Shown: positions 8,879 to 13,381 of the stretch, piece by piece | Layout: each line of letters begins with the position of its first letter | Position numbering within the stretch: position 1 is the first letter of the stretch | Assembly: GCA_025055075.1 (NCBI GenBank) | Contig: JANWYV010000018.1 | Span: 1-59,263, forward strand | Reading direction: 5' to 3' | DNA length: 59,263 nt | DNA from: Blastocatellia bacterium | GTDB taxonomy: Bacteria > Acidobacteriota > Blastocatellia > HR10 | Translations under genes and position numbers: made by a program | Notes under the pieces: generated by a model | Told to the model about the DNA's origin: nothing | Databases searched by the model: none | Seen by the model: only the letters and a program-made list of their open reading frames with translations

Positions 8879-9682
8879 ATGATGGAAGTGGCGGAGAAGT
8901 ATCGGATCAAGCGCGAACCGTTCTACCTGCCGACGAACAATGAGGTGGAGTTGTTCACGGCGGCATATGTTCAGAAGCTCCCCGTGATGTTGAAGGGACC
9001 CACCGGATGCGGCAAGACCCGATTCGTTCAGTACATGGCGTGGCGACTCGGACGACCGCTCATCACCGTCGCGTGTCACGAGGATTTGTCGGCGACGGAT
9101 CTGGTCGGGCGGTTCTTGCTCGAGGGGGAGGAGACGGTTTGGCACGATGGGCCGTTGACGACGGCCGTGAAGATCGGCGCGATCTGTTATCTGGATGAGG
9201 TCGTCGAAGCGCGCAAGGATACGATTGTGCTCATCCATCCACTGACGGACGATCGGCGCATTCTTCCCATTGAGAAGTTAGGGACGCTGCTGGAAGCCCC
9301 CGATGAGTTCATGCTCGTCATCTCCTACAATCCGGGCTATCAGAGCGTGCTCAAAGATCTGAAGCAATCCACGCGGCAACGCTTCGTGAGCCTCGAATTC
9401 AACTACCCCTCCTTTGAGAATGAGGTGCGCATCGTCATGCACGAAGGTGGCGTGGACGAGGAGACGGCGCGCGATCTGGTGCGCATCGGCCAGAAGGCGC
9501 GCAATCTGAAGGGACATGGCCTGGAGGAAGGGGTCTCCACGCGCTTGCTCGTCTATGCCGCGCAGCTCATCCGAAGCGGCATCCCCCCCTATGAGGCGTG
9601 CGAGGCCGCGATCATCCAGACGATCACGGACGATCCCGAGATCCAACGGAGCCTCCGCGAGATTGTGACGACGATCATCTGA
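8879..9682 (+). CDS. MoxR/NorQ/CbbQ-type AAA+ ATPase
   Basis: Cytoplasmic AAA+ chaperone of the CbbQ/NorQ/GvpN group, which works with a VWA-domain partner to activate or insert cofactors into metalloenzymes. The protein has 267 residues. Walker A is GPTGCGKT at residues 40-47, Walker B is ICYLDEV at 102-108, and the sensor region ISYNPGY and the arginine-rich STRQRF follow. [13 protein letters not shown] after Walker A is the family's signature. There are two consecutive ATG codons (8879 and 8882) behind AGAGG, so the start is uncertain by one residue. The stop lies four bases before the VWA partner gene, so the two are translated from one message. No nitric oxide reductase, RuBisCO or methanol dehydrogenase gene is near, so the client is unknown. 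Family assignment is secure. Confidence 0.92.
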
Positions 9683-9686
9683 ACGT

Positions 9687-12600
9687 ATGGACGATTCGAT
9701 GCGAAGGACATTGGAGCGGCAATTGAAGGGGGTGGCGCCAGAGAAAGCCGAGCATCTCGTCGGGCGACTGCTGCGACTGCCGGCCGATCGGGCCTTTCTC
9801 TTAGTGGAGATGGGCTTGAGTTTGACGACGGCGAGCGTTCGGGCAGCGGCGGAATTCGTGCGCGCCGCCCCTGAGGTGGGAATGCAACTGGAACCGGAGG
9901 AGCTGAAGATTTGGGGAGAAGTCGGCCGACGATTGGCGAGCGTGAGTCCGGAGAGCGCGATCGCCTTTTTCCAAGCGAGTCCCTCGGTCCTCGAAGCCCT
10001 TCCCCTTCGCGTGCGGCGCGAATTGTTGCTGACGGTGCATCGGCAATCATTGATCTCCAGCACGGTGGCACTCGAATGCTTTCAGCGCGCGCCCGAAGTC
10101 CTGCGGCGCATCGGGGATGAAGACCTGGCCGCGCGCCTCTATCTCATCGCTGGGGAGATCGCTCGTCGGAGTGCGACACAAAGCGCGGAGTTCTTGGGCC
10201 GCGCGCCCGAGCTGATCGCGCGCTTTCGGCACGGACGCGAGCGTCAATCCGTAGCGCGCGACCTCTCCGATGAGACGGGGGGCACGCGCCGGCTCCTGGA
10301 ACGAGCGCTCGCACTGACGGCCTTCTTCGCGGAGAAGGCCGGAGGCTTAGCGACGGAGTTCCTTTCGACATTCGCGCGCATGCCAGTCGCCGCTCGTCTG
10401 GAGGATCAGCTCAAATTGCTCGATCACACGCATGCGTTCTTGGAACGGGGCGGGGGCATCGCCTTGCAGTATTTTCAGGTCGCGATCCGCGTGCTCGCGC
10501 TGGCGGGGGCCGACGGCTTGGCGCGATGGACGGATCTGACGTGGAAGATCGCCCGGCAAGACAACGCTGCCGTGTACAACTTCCTGAAGCTCACGCCGCG
10601 CGTCCTGGAGGCGCTCACGCAAACGCAGGGGCCGGCGGCGCCTGCGCTCATCCCACATGTCCTTGAGGTCGTGCGCCAGGTGAGCGATCGCAGCATCGCG
10701 TTAGGGATCGAATGTTTCCGCTCCAGTCCGCGAGCCCTGGCCTCGGCCACTCTCGAGCAATTCGTGCAATGGGCCCAATCCGGATTGACGCTCTATCCCA
10801 AGGACAGCCGTCGCGCTCAGGCCTATTATGCTCTGGAGACGCGCGCGAGCCAACACGCCCTCCAACAAACGGCGGGAGGCGTCACCCTCGAGCGCGTGAG
10901 TCAGACGCTGCGCCTCTACATCCAAGGGATGACCGGACGCTCGGTGACCATTCGTCCGTTGAACCATCTGCCCGATCAAGTGTCCGTTGCCGATGGTCAG
11001 ACGATTGCTCTGCCCGCGGTCATCTCTGAGTTCGGGGACGAGGAGGCCGATTTCAAACTCTACAAGGTCTTGGCCGCTCATGCGGCGGGACAGTTGGAGT
11101 TCGGCACGTATGCGCGCGACCTGCCCGAGTTGATCGCCCTGGTTCACGAGCTGCGGCGCACCTCTTGCCCAAGCGACGAGGGTTCGGCGTCCGAGCCCGT
11201 GACCTTCTCGACGATCCTCGCGCTTTTGCCGGATCGGGAATTGGCCGAACGCCTCTTCACGACGTTCGAGAACGGTCGCATAGATTTCCTCCTTCGCCAT
11301 CATTATCGCGGATTGCGTCGGGATCTCGATTTCGTGCGGCAACGGATGCGCGAGCGGCGTCCGCCTTTGGAAGAGTTGTCGCCTGCTGACCTCGTCGTGG
11401 AGGTCCTCTTCCGCCTAGCTCTTCTCGGAGGCGTCGCCGACGAGGTGCGCCATCGACTGCCGCATCTGGTGACGCTTTTGGAAAACGTCCTGGATCAGTT
11501 CATCCGACGCGTGGACGCCACAGTCGCTGATAGCTTACGGGCGACGCACCTGGTCCTCCAGCTCCTGAAGGCACAAGGCGCTTTGCGCGATGCTGAAGCC
11601 ACATCGGAGCAATCTGCCGCGGAGGAGCCGAAGGATGAGGCCGAACCCGAGATGGGAGAACAGCCCGTGCATCCGCGCGTCCTCACTGACCGTCAGCCGC
11701 GTCCGGCCGATCGCCTCGAGCCATTCAACTTCTGGATTCGCCGCCATCGCGATTCGGACTCCGTGGAGTGGGAGCAGATCGAGGAGTCGCCGTTCGCCGA
11801 GGAGTTGGAGGCCCAAGAGTTGGAGCCGGGCGATCAGGCGTTCTATTACGAGGAATGGGATCACGAGCTGGCGGACTTTCGCATGGCTTGGTGTCGGGTG
11901 ATCGAGCGCCCGGCGCGACGCGGCGCGCGGCAGTTCGTCCAAGCCGTGCGCGCGCAGTATGGGCCGATGATCTCCTCGATCCGATACCAGTTCCAGCTGC
12001 TGCGCCCGGAGGCGTTGCAGAAAGTGCGAGGAGAACTGGATGGCGAGGAATTCGATCTGCAAGCGGTGATCGATTACGCCTTGGATCGTCAGACCTCCGG
12101 ACGCGTCTCCGAGCGCTTATACGTGAGACGCCTGCGTCGTCAGCGCGACGTGGCCGTCTCGTTTCTGCTGGATATGTCCAGCTCCACGGCGCGCACGGTC
12201 TCGCCGCGTTCGTCGCGAGCTGGGACGTCGCGCCCGAGCAAGCGGATCATTGACATCGAGAAGGAAGGCCTGGTGCTGATGAGCGAAGCCTTAGAGGCTG
12301 TCGGCGACCGCTACGCCATCCAAGGATTCACGAGCGAAGGGCGGCACAATGTGAAGTTCTACATCATCAAGGACTTCGATGAGAGGCACTCACCCGAAGT
12401 CGAAGCGCGCATCGGGGGCATCACCTATCAGAATAACACTCGCCTGGGCGCGGCCATCCGTCACGCGACGGCTCGTCTGATGAGTCAGGAAGCGCGCACG
12501 AAGCTCTTGATCGTCCTGAGCGATGGCCGACCTTACGATCACGACTACGGCGATGCGCGATACGCGCGCGAGGATACCAAGATCGCTTTGCGCCAAGCTC

Positions 12601-12755
12601 GCATGGCCGGTGTCATCCCCTTCTGCATCACCATTGATCGCGAATCCGAGGTCCAACTCCGCGACATGTACGGCGAGGTGGGATACACGATCATCGACGA
12701 CGTGTTGAGCTTGCCCGAACGCTTGCCAAGCATCTATCGCCGCCTGACGCGGTGA
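9687..12755 (+). CDS. Giant NorD/CbbO-like VWA protein with helical repeats
   Basis: Partner of the preceding AAA+ ATPase, 1022 residues. Residues about 50-360 consist of a helical repeat of roughly 37 residues whose core reads F-x3-4-Pro-x-Val/Leu-Leu; cores lie near residues 57, 95, 132, 169, 225, 263, 299 and 344. Residues about 400-480 hold a NorD-type conserved block ([33 protein letters not shown]). A charged Glu/Pro-rich linker occurs near 630-660. The C-terminal VWA domain starts near 820 with the metal-ion site DMSSS (Asp829, Ser831, Ser833) and continues to [19 protein letters not shown]. These proteins bind the ATPase hexamer and the client enzyme. The N-terminal repeat makes it far longer than the roughly 600-750-residue NorD and CbbO proteins. 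The start ATG has no strong ribosome site, consistent with translational coupling. Confidence 0.85.
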
Positions 12756-12814: not shown

Positions 12815-12843
12815 TTGACATTTCGGGGGAAACGGGTTATAAG
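12815..12843 (+). promoter_or_regulatory. Near-consensus sigma70 promoter of the H1-like gene
   Basis: TTGACA (12815-12820), a 17-base spacer, then TATAAG (12838-12843): 11 of 12 consensus matches, the best promoter in the window. Transcription should start near 12850, leaving a leader of about 90 bases that contains a nine-pair hairpin (12891-12914) before the ribosome site. Confidence 0.8.
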
Positions 12844-12890
12844 ATAGGCCAAGATGTTGGGGCTGATCTTTGATTGTGCACAAGCGCAAG

Positions 12891-12914
12891 GTGACCACAG
12901 GATATTGTGGTCGC
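12891..12914 (+). other. Hairpin in the 5' leader of the H1-like gene
   Basis: GACCACA (12893-12899) and TGTGGTC (12906-12912) pair perfectly around a six-base loop; flanking G-C and T-G pairs extend the stem to nine. It ends 15 bases before the AAGGAGAGG ribosome site, and could stabilise the transcript or block 5' decay. Confidence 0.45.
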
Positions 12915-12941
12915 CGAAAATCTCAGCAAGGAGAGGGGACG

Positions 12942-13124
12942 ATGGCGAAGAAAGCGACAGCGAAGAAGACCGCTGCGAAGAAGACCGCAGCCAAGAAGAA
13001 AGCTGCGGCGAAGAAGACCACGAAGAAAGCCGCGAAGATGACGGCGCGCGCTTCGATGGCGAAGTTCGCCACGAAGAAGAAGGCCGCCGCCAAGAAGACC
13101 GCCAAGAAAGGAGGCAAGAAGTAA
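12942..13124 (+). CDS. Lysine/alanine-rich histone-H1-like basic protein
   Basis: A 60-residue protein built of Ala-Lys-Lys and Ala-Ala-Lys-Lys units, resembling the C-terminal tail of histone H1 and bacterial H1-like DNA-binding proteins such as HctB, AlgP tails and acidobacterial H1-like proteins. The ATG at 12942 is chosen over the in-frame ATG at 12870 because AAGGAGAGGGG lies just upstream. About 40 percent of residues are lysine and there are no acidic residues. A short less repetitive middle (KMTARASMAKFATKK) splits two basic blocks. It has its own strong promoter and terminator, which suggests high expression. Expected role: binding DNA or RNA and compacting the nucleoid; this is inferred from composition only. 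The stop codon is one base from the ATG of a 15-residue basic peptide. Confidence 0.75.
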   Translation: MAKKATAKKTAAKKTAAKKKAAAKKTTKKAAKMTARASMAKFATKKKAAAKKTAKKGGKK

Positions 13125-13125
13125 C

Positions 13126-13173
13126 ATGCCGGCCAAGAAGAAAGCGACCAAGAAGAAGGGCGGCAAGAAGTGA
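13126..13173 (+). CDS. 15-residue lysine-rich micro-ORF behind the H1-like gene
   Basis: An ATG one base after the TAA of the H1-like gene opens a 15-codon frame, MPAKKKATKKKGGKK, ending in TGA. An AAAGGAGG (13107-13114) inside the end of the previous gene lies about 11 bases before the ATG, so the gene could be translated by coupling. It ends with the same GGKK as the gene before it but is in a different frame (frame shift of +1), so it is not a simple read-through extension. It could be a real microprotein, or the tail of a second decayed copy of the H1-like gene. It lies between the promoter and terminator of the unit. Confidence 0.5.
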   Translation: MPAKKKATKKKGGKK

Positions 13174-13266
13174 GGATCTCCGAGCGCATCTGGCTCCGGC
13201 GCTGACGTCGGTCCGCTGCGGAAGCGCTCGGTGAGGATTTTCGAAAGCGGCTTTCTCACGCTAAGG

Positions 13267-13292
13267 GGGATGGGATTCCCATCCCTTTTTTT
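13267..13292 (+). terminator. Rho-independent terminator of the H1-like unit
   Basis: GGGATGGG (13267-13274) pairs perfectly with CCCATCCC (13278-13285) around a three-base loop and is followed at once by seven Ts. It is the clearest intrinsic terminator in the window. Confidence 0.85.
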
Positions 13293-13381
13293 GTGTCCTC
13301 TGGGGGCACGCGCGCGACGTGGGCCTTCCACGTCCGGATGCGCTAGAATTACGCCGTTGGTCAATACGCGCGGAGGAGGGC

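Follow-up and report, generated by a model that had tools for sequence, protein, structure and literature searches.

The repressor NrdR recognises a palindrome with the consensus acaCwAtATaTwGtgt and is described as specific to the genes of ribonucleotide reductase (RNR). Each NrdR box has a conserved C and a conserved G 9 bp apart (PMC9110341), the boxes lie approximately 31 bp from each other and overlap transcription start sites (PMC9110341; PMC2892513), and NrdR binds pairs of boxes with spacers of 14–17 bp (PMC12051234). A non-RNR gene, topA of P. aeruginosa, is activated by NrdR (PMC4409342). Among basic DNA-packing proteins, Hc1/Hc2, AlgP and the Burkholderia H1-like proteins are the closest in character to those considered here, being likewise Lys/Ala-rich, of low complexity and without a fold. 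Those found here differ in being far shorter (15–72 aa in most families) and below the Pfam and NCBIfam cut-offs, and in their placement under a shared putative operator. An incomplete search of the literature found no paper describing this array of sites and nothing relevant on H1-like proteins of Acidobacteriota.

The window, the whole 59,263 nt stretch of Blastocatellia DNA analysed, carries on its forward strand a unit in the 5' to 3' order of near-consensus promoter, leader, a Lys/Ala ORF of 60 aa (ORF1), a 1 nt gap, a second ORF of 15 codons (ORF2), and terminator. The σ70-type promoter, with an upstream A-tract (12815–12843), matches the consensus at 11 of 12 positions, with TTGACA at 12815–12820, a 17 nt spacer, and TATAAG at 12838–12843; TTGAC and TATA are invariant in 43 aligned leaders. 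An automated scan listed no promoter here solely because it demands a T at the sixth position of the -10. ORF1 (12942–13124), which has no Asp or Glu, is preceded by the Shine-Dalgarno sequence AAGGAG (12928–12933; anti-SD pairing of -8.0 kcal/mol), and the unit closes with an intrinsic terminator, AAGGGGGATGGGATTCCCATCCCTTTTTTT (13263–13296), in which a stem at 13263–13289 is followed by a run of T. The first-pass annotation had reported a promoter, a ribosome site, an acid-free protein of 60 residues, an ATG one base further on and a terminator, and each of these is indeed in place. Wherever their contigs extend far enough, the four congeners retain promoter, leader, both ORFs, the 1 nt gap and the terminator; the contig of G004 begins inside the leader. 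That all of these elements are kept within the genus, and that the promoter and leader recur across the class, shows the arrangement to be more than chance. The terminator stem GGGATGG..CCATCCC is kept across the order in near-identical sequence (L011, L012, L013, L014, L044), which exceeds what a terminator needs. Directly 5' of the unit, at 8879–12755, there is a pair of genes for a CbbQ/NorQ-type AAA ATPase and a VWA protein, the latter syntenic with the unit order-wide.

The same annotation had described the leader as a hairpin. A hairpin of 10 bp is present at 12890–12915; the leader consists, however, chiefly of NrdR-box-like sites in a symmetric arrangement that is kept class-wide and had gone unrecognised. 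Box A, a full palindrome at 12847–12862 with the core CAAGATGTTG at 12850–12859, begins 4 nt 3' of the -10 and, judged from the position of that -10, overlaps the predicted transcription start. Its core, CWANATNTWG, is perfect in 65 of 76 leaders, has at most one mismatch in 74, and is the same as the core at the promoters of nrdJ, the B12-dependent RNR. Box D, also a full palindrome (CCACAGGATATTGTGG, 12895–12910), has at most one core mismatch in 75 of the 76, one mismatch being its usual state, and a near-identical box is present at nrdJ promoters. Between them are half-site B (12872–12879, with TTGTG at 12874–12878), 31 bp 5' of the G of box D, and half-site C (12878–12885, with CACAA at 12879–12883), 31 bp 3' of the C of box A. 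All 20 of the near-invariant leader bases fall inside these four elements: C36, A38, A40, T41, T43 and G45 in box A; T60 and G62, each in 76/76, in half-site B; A66, C67, A68 and A69, again in 76/76, in half-site C; and C84, A88, T89, T91, T92, G93, T94 and G95 in box D. The C and G that are 9 bp apart are kept in 75–76 of 76 leaders in box A (C36/G45) and in all 76 in box D (C84/G93). The distances C36–C67 and G62–G93 are each 31 bp, nearly all of the invariant bases are mirrored about position 64.5, and columns 36–96 are gap-free in the 43 aligned leaders, with the array just 3' of the -10. The criterion applied for an NrdR pair was two boxes approximately 31 bp apart, with a spacer of 14–17 or 24–27 bp; the spacer here is 15 bp. 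The pairs A-C and B-D each combine a full box with a half-site, and between boxes A and D, the full ones, the distance is 48 bp, which is beyond the spacings tested for NrdR.

The link to RNR comes from an unbiased search with the box D palindrome, allowing at most one mismatch, in 12 genomes. Besides the leader it returned eight other sites: five at nrdJ promoters, one 5' of an ORF that is itself located ahead of nrdR in the same orientation, and two elsewhere. The box motif is present at the nrdJ promoters of nine genomes of the order (G000–G003 and G005–G009), and eight box pairs at nrdJ promoters of the order are spaced at exactly 31 bp, with none or one at each other spacing; the background, in 800 kb of a relative, was three pairs over 50 spacings. 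The nrdR gene itself is present, above the TIGR00244 cut-off, in all 20 genomes tested, and no canonical box pair was found around it. Outside the order a single RNR promoter was examined, that of G023 in family f5, and it carries one full box and, at a distance of 31 bp, a half-site (CTAG) similar to half-site B. A box in G006 (contig C66) is located inside a coding ORF, and in G053 (contig C15, 147523; L158) two NrdR-like boxes approximately 90 bp apart are intergenic after a pilus-type gene, without a clear target.

Taken together, the locus is best explained as a transcription unit, complete in itself, that encodes H1-like, Lys-rich micro-proteins and is controlled by NrdR, a reading that is probably correct, in which binding by NrdR and the direction of control are both predicted from sequence. 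It resembles the known regulon in the C and G of the palindrome 9 bp apart, the overlap with the predicted start site, the presence of nrdR in the genome, and the same box at nrdJ; a 31 bp spacing also occurs, here between a full box and a half-site. It differs in that the target is H1-like proteins and not RNR, and in the layout, a dyad-symmetric array of 64 bp 3' of the -10 with two full sites and two half-sites. With topA it would share the feature of an NrdR target that touches DNA topology and not dNTP synthesis, although topA has a single box, is activated, and encodes a DNA topoisomerase.

In the mechanism envisaged, boxes A and D and half-sites B and C would together form a symmetric operator lying over the start site of a strong σ70 promoter. 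When dATP is high, NrdR tetramers loaded with dATP/ATP would occupy A-C and B-D and block transcription, repressing the H1-like unit together with RNR; when dATP is low, or DNA synthesis is active, the promoter would fire strongly and both peptides would be made. In the genus the mRNA would be bicistronic for the 60 aa protein and the 15 aa peptide, the latter started from its own Shine-Dalgarno site or by reinitiation over the 1 nt gap, and both products, as disordered polycations, would neutralise and condense DNA. Since NrdR activates topA, the sign of its control at the H1-like unit could be either. The full proposal, that in Blastocatellia the one repressor NrdR, reading dATP/ATP, couples an H1-like packing micro-protein to dNTP supply through a four-site operator, is put forward tentatively, its chances being somewhat below even.

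It might be argued that the array is the operator of a different regulator with a similar palindrome, as full boxes at 48 bp with adjacent half-sites are unlike the described NrdR operators. The presence of the same box at the nrdJ promoters of the order, in pairs at exactly 31 bp, and, in a different family, once more at the promoter of an RNR gene, makes this improbable. Alternatively, the leader, which lies in the 5' UTR, may be a cis-acting structured RNA, an mRNA stabiliser or switch, with the box D hairpin in the HR10 order and a helix between half-site C and box D elsewhere. The region 12850–12945 folds at -34.5 kcal/mol (z of -3.9 against 200 shuffles), the lower stem of the hairpin covaries within the order, the helix 62–71/89–98 is paired at 87% class-wide as compared with 34–50% when slid, and in ensemble folding each clade prefers a single helix. 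Against this, the leader has no match to any Rfam family, its complementarity follows from repeated palindromic half-sites, and in the species of the window the ribosome site stays mostly free (0.83). Furthermore, the helix partner varies by clade while primary sequence and spacing are fixed, which fits protein sites better than RNA. The covariation speaks for an RNA-only reading, but the return of nrdJ promoters by box D weighs against it, and it is considered unlikely. Under control by NrdR, the covarying helices over the box bases would still leave room for a role at the RNA level, and the HR10-order hairpin may add mRNA stability. Two other RNA candidates were rejected: a CsrA-type GGA loop, as the loop GGA is not conserved in G005, G008 and G009, and a pairing of element 1 with element 3, which has support in part of f5 only.

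Of 162 Blastocatellia genomes, 43 gave a leader hit with a first covariance model, built from nine members of the order, and 80, representing 37 of 53 genera, with a refined model. No genome outside the class had it in a sample of 396 genomes of the phylum. In nearly all cases a Shine-Dalgarno sequence and a Lys-rich ORF of 22–168 aa come after the leader. Among the 80 complete first ORFs, Lys accounts for at least 20% of the residues in 78 and for 19% in a further one; their median length is 34.5 aa, their median Lys content 39%, and 70 contain no Asp or Glu. Among loci outside the set used to build the model, at least 20% Lys is seen in 38 of 39. These proteins are H1-like by character, Lys/Ala-rich and almost acid-free, and from their composition appear disordered. 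No Pfam family was above its cut-off, and among the NCBIfam H1-like models (Hc1/Hc2/Burkholderia H1-like), the only ones to which ORF1 has even weak similarity, the score was 12.1 bits against a cut-off of 80, with none passed. A role in the nucleoid, with DNA-binding read from composition, is plausible. Within the order, a DNA search finds the promoter and leader in common 3' of the same VWA-protein gene, and flanking genes are shared within families only. As the neighbours differ between families, it is the promoter, leader and peptide that form the conserved unit and travel alone. The leader was undetected in genera g11, g30, g32 and g34 and in family f9, although related genera have it, through either loss or divergence.

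That half of the class genomes sampled carry NrdR-like sites at an H1-like unit suggests that a DNA-packing protein is tied to replication supply. For a regulator described as RNR-specific, a class-wide target encoding DNA-packing micro-proteins would tie nucleotide pools to nucleoid compaction, and would, if true, give bacteria a counterpart of the coupling between histone synthesis and replication. The array is, in addition, an unusual operator layout for the study of NrdR oligomers.

ORF2 (13126–13173, ATG at 13126 and TGA ending at 13173) is in the +1 frame and encodes MPAKKKATKKKGGKK; the form of the peptide named as a target for mass spectrometry is PAKKKATKKKGGKK. Its Shine-Dalgarno sequence, AAAGGAGG (13107–13114), lies within the end of ORF1 in Gly-Gly codons, and the GGAGG at 13110–13114, 11 nt 5' of the ATG and kept in G000–G005, has the strongest anti-SD pairing within ORF1 (-10.9 kcal/mol). 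All 15 residues are identical across the five species of the genus, the window species and its four congeners, and the nucleotide sequence varies at four sites, every one a synonymous third position. In contrast, up to 23 positions differ, by ungapped count, in the 30 nt 3' of the stop codon. The gap from ORF1 is a single base in all five genomes, its letter varying (C, C, G, C, A). About 19% of the sites in ORF2 are synonymous, which gives a chance of approximately 0.1% that four out of four changes would be so, a figure that would be weakened by third-position bias. On this pattern of substitution, ORF2 is real and under purifying selection; the synonymous-only change and the constant gap rule out a chance ORF.

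It had been suggested that this frame is either a coupled second peptide or the tail of a decayed second copy, with conservation as the test. The former fits what is seen, with frame, ATG and one-base gap kept in five of five species and synonymous changes only. The latter is rejected as a description of the present state by the 15/15 identity. ORF2 does resemble the tail of ORF1, GGKK ending both, and its start, MPAKK, is like that of H1-like proteins in other families, so that an origin by duplication is possible; that ORF2 is today what is left of a decayed second copy is extremely improbable, given its unchanged residues and the comparable second ORFs in other genomes. The sister genus (G005) has MALKTAKRPGAAP... 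in the place of ORF1 but retains, behind AGGAGG and in the +1 frame, a second ORF of 15 aa, MAAKKKAPAKKKGKK. In G007, MATKKKAAKKTAKKKR comes 40 nt after an unrelated first ORF. The second ORF is therefore retained as the first changes. Analogous second ORFs of 15–16 aa are retained in other families of the order, while G006, G008 and G009 each have one longer H1-like ORF. If the two ORFs were joined by programmed frameshifting (+1) at the stop codon of ORF1, this would account for the frame of ORF2 and for the GGAGG 7 nt 5' of the TAA, an arrangement close to that of the RF2 gene. However, +1 re-pairing at AAG|UAA is poor, ORF2 has a conserved ATG of its own, and the gap in G007 is 40 nt, making this very unlikely. 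First ORFs of at most 35 aa (41 of 80) and a second ORF of 15 aa are of sizes often missed by gene callers, and annotations may therefore lack most of an abundant component of the nucleoid.

A separate H1-like protein of the genus, with an acidic N-terminus (MQLEPEALTTTPSPE...KKAAAKKPAAKK), is encoded at 88853–89010 of contig C20 in G000 (L019, L026, L152), where the model found no leader. Second copies of the leader are present in G017 (L130), G150 (L144) and G019 (L150). In the latter two genomes the second leader heads a Lys/Pro repeat protein (KLTKVPPT...), a different basic protein behind the same kind of leader.
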